Part shown: positions 15,281 through 35,633 of the stretch, one piece after another | Layout of the letters: each line of letters begins with the position of its first letter | How positions within the stretch are numbered: position 1 is the stretch's first letter | DNA from: Thiobacillaceae bacterium | GTDB taxonomy: Bacteria; Pseudomonadota; Gammaproteobacteria; Burkholderiales; Thiobacillaceae | Length of the DNA: 35,633 bases | Direction of reading: 5' to 3' | Assembly: GCA_025054655.1 (NCBI GenBank) | Contig: JANWZL010000016.1 | Location: 1-35,633 of the forward strand | The notes under the pieces: generated by a model | The model's input: the letters and a program-made list of their open reading frames with translations, nothing else | Databases searched by the model: none | What the model was told of the DNA's origin: nothing | Translations under genes and position numbers: made by a program

Positions 15281-16897
15281 TCAGTGTGAGCGTTTGCGCG
15301 CGATATGGGCATAGACGCGGATACCGGCGTGTACAAGCACCCCCGCCAGGGCTAGGATGGCCAGCCACTTGGCGGTCTGATCCAACAGCGGGATGTGATC
15401 TCGGCCGGGGATATAGACCCCTTCGACCTTGGCCAGACGCCCGTCGCGGCTGTGACACTCGGCACAGGCGAGCGCGTCCTCCTTCGGCGCCACCATGTGG
15501 GTGATGGGCCACACGCTCAGGGTGCGGATGAAATCGACCTGGCCCGAGAACGGCAGCCCAGCGGTGCGCATGCCGGTCTCGATCGCCTTGTGCCAGTCCA
15601 GGTTAGTCCAGTAAGCGGTGTCGTCCGCGCCGGCCAGATGGGTGACCACCAGGGTCTTGTTGACCGGGTCATAAGGCTGATTGCCATGAAAGACCTTCAC
15701 CGGCCAGATGCGCGAGCGTCCGTCGTCAGGGCTGCCCAGGTAACGGTTGATGTAGATGGGCTCGGCGGACTTGTCCACCTTGTCGCCCGGCAGGGTGTAG
15801 ATCACCTCACCGTTGAGCCACATGTATTGCGGTTTGACGTTCTCGCCGAAGGTGAAGCTGCCCTTGCGGCTTTCGTAGATCTTGTTGCCGTCCTTGTCCT
15901 TGACCACGAACTGTTTGCCCTTGGCGTCGCGGCGGCCGGCGGTGGACCAGTCCCAGGACAGCTTGGTGGCGATGCCGCCACGGGCGTAAGCCGGGACGTG
16001 ACAGGTCTGGCAGGCGAGCTTGACCGTGTGGTCGTTGAGCTTGCCGGCGTTTCTGCCCTTGTGCGGCGTCTGCCCATGGCAGGACTGGCAGGTGGCGGGA
16101 TTGCGCTCGCTGCCCTTGCCGCGGATCATAGGACCGTCCTTGTCGGCCGCGGTCGGCGTGTAGCGACTGCCGGGCACCCGGTGGCCGTCGGTCTGGTGGC
16201 AGGTGGCACAGGTGAAGTTGAGCCCCTCCACGTCCATGTGCACGTCGAGTTTGCGATCGGGGTCCTCCAGCGAGCTGTCGAGGTCACCGTGCTTGACGCC
16301 GTCGCCGCCGCCGCCCATGAAGTGGCAGGTGCCGCAGGATCGGCGGCTGGTCTTGCCCACGCTCTGCGCGATCTTGCGCAGGTTCTGCCCTCTGATGACG
16401 TTGCCTGACCCCGGCGGCAGCTCCACATCCTTCGCCACCACGTTGCCGCCCAGACCGGTGGGCTTGGAGTAGCTGACCGTGGCATGGCAGACCAGGCAAT
16501 CGACCCGCTCGGGCTCCTCGATCAGGCCCTTGTCCGTCATGGCCGCGTAGCCGACGTGACAGGTCGCGCAGGCATGCAGGTTGGAGCCCACCGAGGTGCA
16601 GAAGTTGTTGACCACATGGCGCTTGCCCAAGCGCTGCTGGTTTTTCGGGTTGATGGTCTCCCACTTCCAGTGCAAGGTGTGCATCACCTGCTTGGCCGCC
16701 TCGGTGTGGCAGGACAGGCAGGCACGGGTCACCTCCGGCCCGGACAAGAAGTCCTGCTGAAGCTCCTTGAACTTGCTGTGGTCCGCGGTGGTCCGGGCGC
16801 GTTCGCTCTCGGCCAGCGCCGGGTCCATCCAGACCAAGGTCAGACTGAGCCCACCTGCGCAGAGCGCTGCGGCCCACCTTCGCGATGCTTGCAGCAT
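15281..16897 (-). CDS. Octaheme c-type cytochrome, tetrathionate-reductase (Otr) family, 538 aa
   Basis: A periplasmic multiheme redox enzyme. Eight CXXCH sites are present, starting at Cys60, 110, 134, 188, 230, 270, 296 and 478. Their spacing, with seven in the first 300 residues and the eighth far downstream, fits the octaheme tetrathionate-reductase family known from Shewanella. Members of that family reduce tetrathionate, nitrite and hydroxylamine in vitro. In that family one heme has a lysine ligand; Lys145, in SYSKP just after the third site, is a candidate here. An N-terminal signal peptide (cleavage after ALA, residue 29) and a C-terminal membrane helix (about 511-530, followed by a basic tail) predict a membrane-anchored periplasmic protein. 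I chose the ATG at 16897 because AAGGGGGT precedes it and the signal begins there. In-vivo direction and substrate are not shown by sequence. Confidence 0.92.
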   Translation of the reverse strand: MLQASRRWAAALCAGGLSLTLVWMDPALAESERARTTADHSKFKELQQDFLSGPEVTRACLSCHTEAAKQVMHTLHWKWETINPKNQQRLGKRHVVNNFCTSVGSNLHACATCHVGYAAMTDKGLIEEPERVDCLVCHATVSYSKPTGLGGNVVAKDVELPPGSGNVIRGQNLRKIAQSVGKTSRRSCGTCHFMGGGGDGVKHGDLDSSLEDPDRKLDVHMDVEGLNFTCATCHQTDGHRVPGSRYTPTAADKDGPMIRGKGSERNPATCQSCHGQTPHKGRNAGKLNDHTVKLACQTCHVPAYARGGIATKLSWDWSTAGRRDAKGKQFVVKDKDGNKIYESRKGSFTFGENVKPQYMWLNGEVIYTLPGDKVDKSAEPIYINRYLGSPDDGRSRIWPVKVFHGNQPYDPVNKTLVVTHLAGADDTAYWTNLDWHKAIETGMRTAGLPFSGQVDFIRTLSVWPITHMVAPKEDALACAECHSRDGRLAKVEGVYIPGRDHIPLLDQTAKWLAILALAGVLVHAGIRVYAHIARKRSH

Positions 16898-17294
16898 AAC
16901 GACCCCCTTCAAACAGGACAACACGACTCGGCCCACATCACCCATGCCCCCACCCTCGCTGAGGGCATACGGCATGAGTGCATTAATGAGGACATCAAGA
17001 ACCTTTTAGCATGTTAGTGCCTGCCCACCCACACGCAATGCCGCCCGCACTCCCCGTGCGCACCGAAGACCATCGGATGGCTTGGGCATGCGGCTCGCCG
17101 GACGTGCGGCCGGCCTCAGGTGGCTGCGCCCGCCCTCGCGCTGGGTGTGCGGAGCTGTAATAGGATAACGTCATTTCATGATTCTCTTATATACAAAAAT
17201 TTTAATTTGGCAATCTGGATGCGTTTATCTATAGTGGGTTGCACACGGCGATCGAGCGCCGAGATTGGTCCTGCATGCCGCTTGGAGGTGATCG
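16898..17294. promoter_or_regulatory. Divergent intergenic region between the two arms of the sulfur block
   Basis: About 400 bases with no credible gene. The part next to the octaheme cytochrome is GC-poor around 16970-17015 (CATTAATGAGG...TTTTAGCATG) and should hold the minus promoter, but I could not settle on a -35/-10 pair. The middle (17020-17155) is GC-rich with small imperfect hairpins. The part next to the transporter gene (17158-17235) is an AT-rich island with a strong sigma70-like promoter. No complete FNR, NarL or ArsR-type consensus was found. Confidence 0.6.
17207..17235 (+). promoter_or_regulatory. Strong sigma70-like promoter for the YeeE/YedE-rhodanese operon
   Basis: TTGGCA at 17207-17212, exactly 17 bases, TATAGT at 17230-17235. 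It lies 60 bases upstream of the ATG in an AT-rich island, the best -35/-10 match seen in the window. Confidence 0.65.
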
Positions 17295-30456: not shown

Positions 30457-32769
30457 TCAACGCCGGTCGGCGAGGGCGCGGGCCAGCGCTGCCGCCATGG
30501 CCCCGAGAGGCTGGGCCTCGCGCCGCGGTGTGCGCCCAGTCACGCCGGAGCGCGCGGCAGGGCGGCCAGGCTCGCCCCCGCCGGCGGCCTGCAGGCGCAT
30601 GGACAGGGCGATGCGGCGCCGCGCCACATCCACCTCCAGCACCCTCACGCGCACGATCTCGCCCACCCGCACCACCGCACGCGGGTCGCGCACGAAACCC
30701 TCGGCCAGCTCGGAGACGTGCACCAGGCCGTCCTGGTGCACACCGACGTCGACGAAGGCGCCGAAGTTGGCCACGTTGGTCACCACCCCTTCCAGCACCA
30801 TGCCGGGTTTGAGGTCCTGCAGCGCCTCCACCCCATCCTGGTAGATCGGCGTGCGAAATTGCGGGCGTGGGTCGCGACCGGGCTTCTCCAGCTCGCCGAG
30901 GATGTCGCGCACGGTCGGCAGTCCGAAACGCTCGTCCGTGTAGCGGGCGGGGTCGAGCCGCCGCAGGGTGGCCGTGTCGCCAATCAGGGTGCGCACGTCC
31001 CGCTGTAAGTCGGCGAGGATGCGCTGCACCACCGCATAGGCCTCGGGGTGCACGGCGGAAGCGTCCAAGGGCTCATCGCCGTCGCGAATGCGCAGGAAAC
31101 CGGCCGCCAGCTCGAAGGTCTTCGGCCCCAGGCGCGGTACGGCCTTGAGCGCCTCGCGGCTGCGGAAGGGGCCGTGCGCGTCGCGGTGGGCGACGATGGC
31201 CTCGGCCAGCGCCCGGTTCAGCCCAGACACGCGCGCAAGCAAGGGCACCGAGGCGGTGTTGACTTCCACCCCCACGGCGTTGACGCAGTCCTCCACCACC
31301 GCGTCCAAGACCTGGGCCAGCTTGGCCTCGCTTACGTCGTGCTGGTATTGCCCTACACCGATGGATTTGGGGTCGATCTTGACCAGTTCGGCCAGGGGGT
31401 CCTGCAGGCGACGGGCGATCGACACCGCGCCGCGCAGGCTCACGTCCAATTCGGGAAACTCGCGTGCGGCCAGTTCCGAGGCGGAATAGACCGAGGCCCC
31501 CGCCTCGTTGACCAGGACGGGGGTCAGCTTCAGCTCGGGATGGGCCTGCGCCAGCTCACGCACCAGGCGTTCGGTCTCCCGGCTGGCGGTACCGTTGCCA
31601 ATGGCGATCAGGCGCACACCGTGCCGCCGCGCCATGCGCTCTAGCTCGGCCAGTGCGCCGGCGCGGTCGTTGCGCGGGGCGAACGGATACAGCGTGGCCG
31701 TCTCCAGCAGCCTACCGGTAGAGTCCACACAAGCCACCTTCACCCCGGTGCGGATGCCGGGGTCGAGCCCGATCACCGGCTGCGCCCCGGCCGGGGCGGC
31801 CATGAGCAGGTCCTTGAGGTTGGCGGCAAAGACACGGATGGCTTCGGCCTCGGCGCGCTCGAACAGGCTGTTGAACAGATCCAGCTCCAGGTGCAGCGAC
31901 AGTTTCACACGCCAGGCCCAGCGCACGCTCTCCTTCAACCAGGCATCCGCCGGTCGGCCGTGGTCGCAGATACCGGCATGCGCGGCGATCATGCCCTCGG
32001 CCGTGGTCTGCCGGGCGGCATCCCAGTCGGGCAGGAGCTCTTCCGGCTGCTTGAGCGACAGCCGCAGCACCCCCTCGCGCCGCCCGCGCAACAGGGCGAG
32101 CGCCCGATGCGAGGGGATGGTGCGCCAGGGTTCGGCGTAGGTGAAGTAATCGCGGTATTTCTGGCCCGCAGCCTCCTGCCCCTCGACCACCTGCGAGACG
32201 AGCACCCCCTGCTGCTGCAGGTAATCCCGCAGCCGGCCCACCAGGGCGGCGTCCTCGGCGAAGCGCTCCATCAGGATCTGCCGCGCCCCTTCCAGGGCTG
32301 CCTTCACGTCCGGCACCCCCTTGCCGGCGTCCACATAGGCGGCGGCCTCGGCCTGCGGGTCGCGCTGCGGCTCGGCCAGCAACCCGAGGGCGAGCGGCTC
32401 CAGGCCCGCCTCGCGCGCGATCTGCGCCTTGGTGCGGCGCTTGGGGCGGTAGGGCAGGTAGAGGTCCTCCAACGCCTGGCGGGTGGCCGCCGCCTCGATG
32501 GCGGCCTGCAGTTGCGGTGTGAGCAGGCCCTGCTGCTGAATGCTCGCCAGCACCGCCGCGCGGCGCTGCTCCAGCTCGCGCAGATAGCCCAGACGCTCCG
32601 CCAGGGCACGCAGCTGGACGTCGCTCAGCCCGCCGGTAGCCTCCTTGCGGTAGCGGGCGATGAAGGGCACGGTGGCGCCCTCGTCCAGCAGGGCCACGGC
32701 GGCGGCCACCTGGCGGGGCGACACACCGAGTTCGGCGGCGATGCGATCGACGATGGAGGGCAAGGACAT
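30457..32769 (-). CDS. tex: Tex family RNA-binding transcription accessory protein, 770 aa
   Basis: A cytoplasmic nucleic-acid-binding protein of the Tex/Spt6-like family. Domains in order: the helical N-terminal Tex domain ([20 protein letters not shown], then [17 protein letters not shown]); the YqgF/RuvC-like fold opening with [20 protein letters not shown] at about 330-350; the tandem helix-hairpin-helix region ([38 protein letters not shown]); and a C-terminal S1 RNA-binding domain ([29 protein letters not shown]). The last 40 residues are a basic low-complexity tail. I chose ATG at 32769, where family similarity begins; no strong ribosome binding site is visible. The long in-frame extension upstream overlaps mltA antisense and was dropped. 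Confidence 0.95.
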
Positions 32770-32880
32770 GGTGGTATGAGGGCGCGCCGAAGGGCCGGGG
32801 CGCATAGCATGGTGTGCGCAGCGCCCCCAGACAAGTCTTGCCAGCCGTGCGCCGAGCTGCTCTCGCCCGCGGCGCCTTGC

Positions 32881-32886
32881 TATACT
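32881..32886 (+). promoter_or_regulatory. -10-like TATACT very close to the mltA start
   Basis: TATACT ends 10 bases before the mltA ATG at 32897; a recognisable -35 was not found at the right distance. If used, the 5' untranslated leader would be only a few bases, and indeed no Shine-Dalgarno sequence is visible before the ATG. Confidence 0.35.
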
Positions 32887-32896
32887 CGCAGCCCAG

Positions 32897-34234
32897 ATGC
32901 CCGGACCGTTGCTCACCCCTCTGACCCTGCTCGTGCTGGCGCTCGTGCTCACCGCCTGCACCAGCCTGCCACCCGGAACGCGCGTGCCCGAGCCGCGCGA
33001 ACGGCGGGCGCCGGAGCCGACGCCACCGGTCCAGGTCGAACCGTCGCCACCCCCGGCCTCATCGCCGCCGTCGGCACCGCCCGCGCCCCCGCTCACCGCC
33101 CCGCCCACACCCGCGCCGCCCGCCGCTGCACCCCGCCCCGCTGCCCAGCTGCGACCGGCCAGCTACCGCGATCTGCCCGGCTGGCAACAGGACGACCCGA
33201 GCCAGGCCTGGCCGGCGCTCTTGCAATCCTGTCGCGTCCTACGCACCCAGCCCGCCTGGACGGTGCCTTGTCAGGCCGCCGAGGCCCTTGGCCAGCCCGA
33301 TGCGGCCACGGCACGCGCCTATTTCGAGCGCCATTTCGTCCCCCATCAGGTCCTGCAGCCGGACGGCAGCCCCGAGGGGTTGGTCACGGGTTACTACGAG
33401 CCGCTGCTGCGCGGCAGCCGCAGCCCCAGTGCGCGTTACCGCCATCCGCTCTATGCGCCGCCCGAGGACCTGCTGGTGATCGATCTCGGCACGCTCTACC
33501 CGGAACTGAGGAATCTGCGCCTGCGCGGTCGGCTGGAGGGGCGGCGGGTGGTGCCCTACTACACTCGCGCCGAGATCGAAACCGGCTCCGCCCCCGTGCG
33601 CGGGCGGGAGCTGCTATGGGTGGACGACCCGGTAGAGCTGTTCTTCCTGCAGGTGCAGGGCTCAGGGCGGGTGTTGCTCGACAACGGCGAGGTGGTGCGG
33701 GTGGGCTATGCCGAGCAGAACGGCCATCCTTACCGCTCCATCGGCCGCTGGCTGGTGGACAACGGCGAGCTGCCGCTGGAGCGCGCCTCCATGCAGGGCA
33801 TCAAGGAATGGGCACAGCGCAACCCGCACCGGCTCACCGAGCTGCTGCACGCCAACCCGAGCTATGTCTTCTTTCGCGAGCTGCCCAAAGAGCTGACGGG
33901 GCCCCTGGGTGCGCTGGGGGTGCCATTGACCGCCGAACGCAGCATCGCCGTGGACCCCAGCATGATTCCCCTGGGTGTACCGGTGTGGCTCGCTACCACC
34001 CGACCCAATTCCAACGTGCCCTTGGAGCGACTGGTCCTGGCCCAGGACACCGGCGGGGCCATCCGCGGGGCGGTGCGGGCGGATTTCTTCTGGGGCTTTG
34101 GTGAGGCGGCCGGCCAGCTAGCCGGGGCCATGAAGCAACGCGGCCGCATGTGGGTGCTGTTGCCGCCAGAGCTGGCAACGGCGCGGACCGCGGAGCCGAC
34201 CAGCGCCACACGATCCGCACGCAACGGCAATTGA
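32897..34234 (+). CDS. mltA: Membrane-bound lytic murein transglycosylase A (MltA), 445 aa
   Basis: An outer-membrane lipoprotein that cleaves peptidoglycan glycan strands. The signal ends in the lipobox LTAC with Cys21 as the lipidation site. A Pro/Ala-rich linker of about 60 residues (about 27-85) follows, longer than usual and probably a spacer through the periplasm. The MltA domain has [32 protein letters not shown] (in part: FFLQVQGSG), [15 protein letters not shown] and [11 protein letters not shown]. The C-terminal 3D domain has the catalytic-Asp stretch [11 protein letters not shown] and [19 protein letters not shown] (in part: [18 protein letters not shown]). It is divergent from tex. 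Confidence 0.95.
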
Positions 34235-34330: not shown

Positions 34331-34810
34331 ATGCCTATCGTCTGGGAACCCCGACTGGACACCGGTATCGAGGTCATCGACGAACAGCACAAACGCATCG
34401 TCAACTACATCAGTCAACTGGAGGCCGCCCGGCGGTCCGGCGACCGCAATCAGGTCATGGCGGTGATCGAGGAGCTGGTGGACTACACCCAGTCCCACTT
34501 CGGCTTCGAGGAGGCGATGATGGAGGAGGCCGGCTACGAGTTCCTCAAGCCGCACCAGAAGGTGCACGAGCTATTCATCAAGCGGGTGACCGAGTTCACC
34601 ATGCGCGCGGCCAAGGGCGAGGACATCGCCGAAGAGCTGCAGCACACCCTCACCCGCTGGCTCATGAACCACATCGCCAACGAGGACCACAACTACGCCG
34701 AGGCGGTCAAGCGCATGGTGGCGCGCAAACAGCAGGCGGCCGTGACGACACCAGCGGCCGCAACGTCCAAGGGTTTGTTCGCCAGCCTGCTGAAACGTTT
34801 CTTCCGCTGA
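34331..34810 (+). CDS. Bacteriohemerythrin, 159 aa
   Basis: A cytoplasmic four-helix di-iron oxygen-binding protein. All seven family ligands are present: His20 (DEQH), His56 and Glu60 (HFGFE), His75 and His79 (HQKVH), His114 and Asp119 (HIANED). The last 30 residues (Ala/Thr-rich then KGLFASLLKRFFR) form an amphipathic basic tail beyond the domain that could touch the membrane. ATG at 34331 has GAGGAG eight bases upstream. The AT-rich 34255-34300 region before it contains two ATATAC copies and a -10-like TATACT, but no convincing -35. By family it delivers or senses O2; a signalling role is possible but not shown. Confidence 0.93.
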   Translation: MPIVWEPRLDTGIEVIDEQHKRIVNYISQLEAARRSGDRNQVMAVIEELVDYTQSHFGFEEAMMEEAGYEFLKPHQKVHELFIKRVTEFTMRAAKGEDIAEELQHTLTRWLMNHIANEDHNYAEAVKRMVARKQQAAVTTPAAATSKGLFASLLKRFFR

Positions 34811-35389: not shown

Positions 35390-35419
35390 GCCGTTGTTGT
35401 TTCTGTAGCAGGGACCTAG

Positions 35420-35525
35420 CTCGGGATCCCAGGGCAACACCGCCGAAAGGCGGCGACGCAAAACCACGGGCCTAAGGTGTCTGAGGTGTCCAACGGACGC
35501 TAGGGCGGCCGGGTTGCATCCCGAG
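35420..35525 (+). ncRNA. Cyclic-di-GMP-I (GEMM-I) riboswitch aptamer
   Basis: The conserved core is present in order: AGGGCAA (35431-35437); a hairpin CCGCC-GAAA-GGCGG with its GNRA loop at 35445-35448; GACGCAAAACC (35455-35465); GGCCTAAGG (35469-35477), the usual tetraloop-receptor side; and a second arm closing with CTAGGGCGGCCGGGTTGC. The ends pair as an 8-bp P1 stem, CTCGGGAT (35420-35427) with ATCCCGAG (35518-35525). This is the architecture of the class I c-di-GMP aptamer. It lies in the leader of the gene starting at 35590. Confidence 0.88.
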
Positions 35526-35546
35526 GTGGCGGCAAGTCATCGCGCG

Positions 35547-35584
35547 CTCCTCGTGTCCTGGACCCGCTGGGTAGTAACGAGGAG
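35547..35584 (+). promoter_or_regulatory. Ribosome-binding-site sequestering hairpin (riboswitch expression platform)
   Basis: CTCCTCGT (35547-35554) is perfectly complementary to ACGAGGAG (35577-35584), which contains the Shine-Dalgarno sequence of the following gene. CCTCG in the same strand (35549-35553) can instead pair with CGAGG at 35522-35526, part of the aptamer P1 stem. Binding of c-di-GMP could therefore switch translation. The direction of control is inference. Confidence 0.65.
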
Positions 35585-35589
35585 ATGCC

Positions 35590-35633
35590 ATGTGCAACAG
35601 CGCAACCACCACCACAACCAACGCCGGCCTACA
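35590..35633 (+). CDS. Start of a riboswitch-controlled gene, cut by the window edge
   Basis: ATG at 35590, five bases after GGAG, opens a frame reading MCNSATTTTTNAGL before the window ends. A Thr-rich N-terminus is seen and nothing about function can be said. Its place after a c-di-GMP riboswitch makes a lifestyle, surface or signalling protein likely. Confidence 0.5.
   Translation, partial: MCNSATTTTTNAGL

Follow-up and report, generated by a model that had tools for sequence, protein, structure and literature searches.

A class I c-di-GMP riboswitch, probably a Shine-Dalgarno-masking OFF switch, in the leader of a putative pilV minor-pilin operon of a Thiobacillaceae bacterium

At the end of a contig from a Thiobacillaceae bacterium (assembly GCA_025054655.1), a c-di-GMP riboswitch stands in front of a gene of which only the beginning is present, which raises the question of what gene is controlled, and in which direction. 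The stretch analysed, hereafter the window, is one whole contig of 35,633 nucleotides (G000:C23) from an assembly of 2.2 Mb in 157 contigs, rated 84% complete. The gene is indeed cut off by the contig end, as described in the initial annotation (Table 1), and no contig overlapping the window end at 35,633 was found in the assembly. An exact-pattern match in Pseudomonas, among the named genomes, has surroundings unlike those of the window and was taken, by eye, as chance. The assembly contains 14 GGDEF matches, so c-di-GMP signalling is to be expected, and on sequence grounds the organism probably makes this messenger.

The aptamer was computed with a covariance model. A complete class I aptamer closed by a perfect 8-bp P1 had been read from the letters, and both readings hold: the alignment to RF01051 spans model positions 1–87 of 87 with a score far above the cut-off, P1 consists of eight perfect pairs that join the aptamer ends, and each leader element was read at exactly the position assigned to it. 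This is the single RF01051 match found in the assembly. The blocks GGGCAA, GCAAAA and GGGTTGC are present in the RF01051 alignment; they are those that would be expected to hold Vc2 bases G20, A47 and C92. In PMC4744006, these three bases are given as ligand contacts of Vc2. The anti-Shine-Dalgarno element (anti-SD) lies 3′ of P1 and has no base in common with it. A simple scan of the window leader found neither a terminator nor a sigma-70-like promoter.

Table 1. Coordinates of the riboswitch, leader elements and neighbouring genes in the window.
Feature	Position	Strand	Evidence or remark
Tex-like RNA-binding protein gene	30457-33108	-	S1 and ComEA-like helix-hairpin-helix matches, below family cut-offs; full-length relatives
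mltA, lytic transglycosylase A	32897-34234	+	PF03562 220.4 bits, PF06725 86.1 bits
Bacteriohemerythrin gene, between mltA and riboswitch	34331-34810	+	NF002007 213.9 bits, cut-off 109
P1 5′ strand CTCGGGAT	35420-35427	+	sequence read
c-di-GMP-I (GEMM-I) riboswitch aptamer	35423-35521	+	RF01051, 61.8 bits, gathering score 35, E 6.4e-10
P1 3′ strand ATCCCGAG	35518-35525	+	sequence read
CGAGG, possible alternative anti-SD partner (35549-35553)	35522-35526	+	used in some folding settings only
Anti-Shine-Dalgarno (anti-SD) CTCCTCGT	35547-35554	+	leader helix search, shuffle p 0.017
Shine-Dalgarno (SD) ACGAGGAG	35577-35584	+	
Start of controlled ORF	35590-35633	+	ATG 35590; 14 codons and 2 bases, then contig end

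Class I riboswitches are common in the family of the window's organism, RF01051 matches occurring in 105 of 117 genomes. The loci read, chosen from among the matches listed, number 118. The family contributes 110 of them, counting the window, and other families of the same order contribute 8; four lack a clear downstream frame. The 114 classified loci comprise 45 followed by DUF1631-like genes, 8 by PilV-like, 6 by PilX-like and 54 by other or unclear genes, and the window itself. No other single target class is as frequent among the loci read as the DUF1631 proteins (e.g., L020, L005, L014). Membership of this class was assigned by eye and by blastp against ten seed proteins, and all ten members checked (nine seeds and one other) pass PF07793; a literature search found no paper on DUF1631 together with a riboswitch. 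Three of three PilV-like proteins tested exceed the NCBIfam cut-off of 52.2 (G001 94.6, G011 83.3 and G012 73.9 bits), and the downstream proteins of G003 and G006 match G001 PilV by blastp. The PilV calls in G072, G077 and G024 rest on the prepilin motif only, and the PilX label was given by eye. Class I riboswitches also precede subtilase-like, apparently secreted proteins (named by eye) at G003:C34:98121-98221 (L036) and G068:C42 (L124).

The helix that covers the SD was examined in nine pilV-class leaders, window included, by setting the best helix over the SD core against those of 400 dinucleotide-shuffled versions of the same leader. The shuffle p is at most 0.06 in seven of the nine: G011 0.012, G072 0.017, G001 0.037, G077 0.047, G006 0.055 and G024 0.060, in addition to the window. 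The hairpin is weak in G003 (p 0.197) and was not found in G012 (p 0.778), neither leader having an anti-SD that pairs convincingly with the SD core. Fisher's combined p over the nine leaders is 2.8e-5, a value that overstates the support because four of the nine come from one genus. Among leaders outside the pilV class, p is at most 0.1 in 14 of 78 and at most 0.05 in 7 of 78.

The letters of the helix change between leaders, as tallied on helices picked by hand from the leader helix search. The SD and anti-SD read ACGAGGAG/CTCCTCGT in the window, GAGCAGCG/CGCTGCTC in G011 and GGAGCGGC/GCCGCTCC in G006, G077 and G024, and ACGAGGA/TCCTCGT of the window differs from ATGAGGA/TCCTCAT of G001 by a C-G to U-A double change. 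Since the letters differ between leaders, SD masking appears to be conserved as a structure rather than as a sequence. The initial annotation had the SD masked by the anti-SD, and this is corroborated both by the recurrence of the helix, in changed letters, in most pilV-class relatives and by the folding calculations below.

Whether P1 decides SD access was addressed in 120 folding settings (5′ end × 3′ end × temperature), each with P1 free or forced. Forcing serves as a stand-in for ligand binding; the calculations treat folding at equilibrium, with neither ligand nor transcription kinetics, and are blunt in that respect. When P1 is forced, the SD stays shut in 120/120 settings (open fraction at most 0.016). 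With P1 free, SD opening lies between 0 and 0.86, depending on the setting, and it drops by more than 0.3 on forcing in 55/120 settings. The 5′ end matters: such a drop is seen in 53/72 settings that include RNA 5′ of P1 (5′ ends 35360, 35390 and 35409) vs 2/48 in which the RNA starts at or beside P1 (35418 or 35420). With the 3′ end at the window end, it is seen in 3/15 settings. The predicted switch would require RNA 5′ of P1 (at least 11 bases in the settings tested). For RNA starting at 35409, a 5′ end that gives a strong effect, none of 150 leader shuffles matched the SD-opening drop of the window, whichever of two 3′ ends was used.

Two details of the original model are upheld in part. 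Pairing of the anti-SD core CCTCG with CGAGG of P1 does occur in the folding settings, with a probability of up to 0.98, but it loses at full window length, where imposing it costs 5 kcal/mol relative to the free ensemble. The model of mutually exclusive pairings is reproduced in the 55 settings named above; however, it depends on the RNA ends, and only two of eight relatives behave alike, SD opening being clearly reduced by P1 forcing in G012 and weakly in G001. Support from folding for a c-di-GMP OFF switch is thus confined to those 55 settings and varies with the choice of RNA ends.

As a whole, we consider it probable that this class I c-di-GMP riboswitch belongs to the leader of a pilV minor-pilin operon and acts as an SD-masking OFF switch. 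Bound c-di-GMP would hold P1 closed; with P1 closed, the anti-SD would pair with the SD and translation of pilV would be blocked. When the ligand is lacking, a fraction of the molecules would have P1 open; the 3′ strand of P1 would then take the anti-SD, and ribosomes could start. Ligand binding is expected from the aptamer, and the OFF direction, which we infer from the folding model, is in our judgement the likelier one, with a minor share left for ON and the remainder for a constant brake or no function. As regards translational control, proposed at the outset, SD masking and the lack of a terminator in the simple scan speak for it, whereas P1-dependent release of the SD is limited to the same 55 of 120 settings. 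Transcription termination, for which the same scan offers no terminator, was judged less likely.

The opposite direction, in which the ligand opens the SD, is unlikely, though it has a precedent in type IV pili: according to PMC4744006, a class II riboswitch before a pilin gene of C. difficile is an ON switch, through which c-di-GMP increases expression of the pilin. Forcing P1 also raises SD opening in G006 at several 3′ ends. Against this, the SD of the window remains closed in every P1-forced setting, and the position of the anti-SD, 3′ of P1 and sharing no base with it, does not favour opening by the ligand.

A rather small chance is given to the possibility that the SD hairpin is a constant brake, keeping initiation low or providing a site for another regulator, while the aptamer acts otherwise, e.g., through RNA stability or Rho. 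Such a brake would agree with the folding of RNA 35409-35633, in which the SD stays shut whether P1 is forced or free, and with the relatives, in six of eight of which SD opening falls by no more than 0.03 on P1 forcing (five with little change, in addition to G006). The ligand-dependent change supported by 55/120 settings argues for the OFF switch instead.

The identity of the cut-off gene was approached through its surroundings and its aptamer, as the residues of the 14 visible codons give no identification. In the window, mltA lies upstream of the riboswitch on the same strand, with one gene between. Its start codon is not fixed, and the listed ORF overlaps the Tex-like gene. By computed synteny, mltA is the gene immediately preceding the pilV riboswitch in G001, G003, G006, G011 and G012, i.e., in 5/5 pilV relatives with enough upstream DNA (the other three of the eight had 150 bases). 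The order in G001 is the Tex-like gene (minus strand), mltA, the riboswitch 104 bases on, pilV and pilW. PilW follows the riboswitch in all five mltA–pilV loci, and in G003, G006 and G012 the contig also carries PilY1, the contigs of G001 and G011 ending early.

The aptamer points the same way. The nearest of 113 aptamers to that of the window is the pilV aptamer of G001 (79.5% identity), followed by that of G011 (74.7%), and the six nearest all belong to pilV or pilX. When the own genus is excluded (genomes outside the family being grouped with genus g7), the nearest neighbour is a pilV aptamer for 8/8 pilV, 6/6 pilX, 0/45 DUF1631 and 3/54 other aptamers, and also for the window. From synteny (mltA upstream) and aptamer class together we infer that the cut-off gene is very likely pilV, which supersedes its initial description as an unidentified gene. 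Judging by gene order in the relatives, the cut-off gene very probably opens a minor-pilin operon for type IV pili.

No match to PilW or PilY1 was found in the window's assembly, as would be the case with a gap at the contig end, but also with plain incompleteness. Another contig, C15 (G000:C15:1-900, L048), starts within a PilY1-like C-terminus that matches G006 PilY1 at 32% over 117 residues; next come a ComP-like pilin (87 bits to PF16732) and a gene that by eye looks biotin ligase-like. This contig could be the far end of the window's pilus operon; it was left out of the pilV evidence because most relatives carry two PilW genes (5/6 searched) and two PilY1 genes (5/5).

A gene for a DUF1631 protein is an improbable target of the window riboswitch. 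In its favour are the frequency of the class (45/114 classified loci, with 10/10 checked members passing PF07793) and G004, in which the Tex-like gene directly adjoins a riboswitch–DUF1631 unit, so that part of the neighbourhood is not exclusive to pilV. The incomplete assembly also gave no DUF1631 match, in a search in which the controls were silent too. On the other side, mltA was found beside 0/45 DUF1631 loci, 25 of them with at least 1 kb upstream, and outside the own genus none of the 45 DUF1631 aptamers is nearest to a pilV aptamer, whereas that of the window is. The letters differ as well: DUF1631 aptamers of the same genus contain ATCACCGGTCTAA and GCGGGAT(T/C)GCCAGG, while the window, resembling the G001 pilV aptamer here, contains CCACGGGCCTAA and GCCGGGTTGCATCC.

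It is highly improbable that the aptamer is decayed or a chance match that binds no ligand: the basal pair of the P2 hairpin, A35439.C35454 (positions counted by eye), is non-standard and may weaken the aptamer, and 61.8 bits is below the pilV aptamers of G001 (69.4) and G011 (71.3), yet it is above that of G003 (60.0) and is reached over the whole model, with a perfect P1 and in a class common to the relatives.

The pilV reading leaves one peculiarity of the window. Between mltA and the riboswitch lie the bacteriohemerythrin gene and some 600 bases more, compared with 104 bases in G001, and this gene is absent from the mltA–riboswitch interval of the five relatives compared. The idea that this stretch is a mobile element was set aside: it holds the bacteriohemerythrin gene, and it has no match in the plasmid collection. 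A relative of the bacteriohemerythrin gene stands in G004 between genes whose translations look CHAD-like and polyphosphate kinase-like. Elsewhere in the window, an octaheme cytochrome of the tetrathionate reductase family is encoded at 15281-16975 on the minus strand (TIGR04315, 594 bits), and a viral-contig scan showed no relative of the window's MrpA-type antiporter protein.

Leaders of genus g4 have features of their own. In three g4 genomes (G006, G077:C627 and G072:C104), one pilus operon contains two class I riboswitches, one before pilV and the other about 1.5 kb on, before a PilX-like gene; at L066 (G006:C32:70000-89000) the matches lie at contig positions 84602-84696 and 83007-83094. 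The g4 pilX and pilV leaders (e.g., L011, L121) also have a 5′ hairpin, ATCTCG-GGT-CGAGAT, that can take the P1 5′ strand, and their 5′ flank repeats the P1 3′ strand. This hairpin has p of at most 0.1 in 6/6 pilX leaders (one genus), 2/8 pilV, 6/45 DUF1631 and 5/54 others. As a second switching device it was rejected for the window, whose leader does not include it (p 0.64).

Minor pilins prime the assembly of type IV pili, and PilY1 is an adhesin. There is about an even prospect that the loci form a conserved one-family regulon, not found in print, in which c-di-GMP acts through SD-masking class I riboswitches on the translation of the minor-pilin/PilY1 operon and, in g4, a second switch before the pilX-like gene lets the same signal be read at two genes. 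If true, a widespread signal of surface life would be tied directly, at translation, to the pilus-priming proteins and the PilY1 adhesin, and the leaders would be natural variants with the SD hairpin rebuilt in a different sequence. Taken singly, the case is an ordinary one to riboswitch specialists; the comparative set is what would be useful.

The closest relatives of the window leader are the mltA–GEMM-I–pilV leaders of G001, G003, G006, G011 and G012, with which it has the aptamer class and the mltA neighbour in common. Of these, G001, G006 and G011 share its SD hairpin. The window differs from this group by the interposed bacteriohemerythrin gene and by the lack of the short 5′ hairpin of genus g4.

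Among described systems, the nearest likeness is to Vc2 of Vibrio cholerae, which PMC9262584 presents as turning translation OFF by masking a distant ribosome-binding site, P1 being its key element. Vc2 and the window leader would have in common that the aptamer is of class I, that P1 does the switching and that the masked ribosome-binding site lies outside the aptamer (PMC9262584). The target of Vc2 is another one, that of the window being the putative pilV operon, and the direction in the window is the predicted one. The pilM riboswitch comes from Geobacter, where pilM is a pilus gene. It likewise has a GEMM-I aptamer ahead of pilus genes, and is a transcriptional ON switch according to PMC9262584. 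It acts through a terminator, whereas the simple scan of the window leader gave none. Clostridioides difficile belongs to another phylum than the window's organism. Its c-di-GMP riboswitch before a pilin gene, as given in PMC4744006, resembles the window in the control of type IV pili and differs in being of class II and an ON switch. A search of the open-access literature, including passages of PMC9262584, PMC8835794, PMC4744006 and PMC13234629, turned up no class I c-di-GMP riboswitch described in front of a pilV operon. With pilV as a target apparently undescribed for class I, the window leader is probably a further translational switch of the Vc2 kind.
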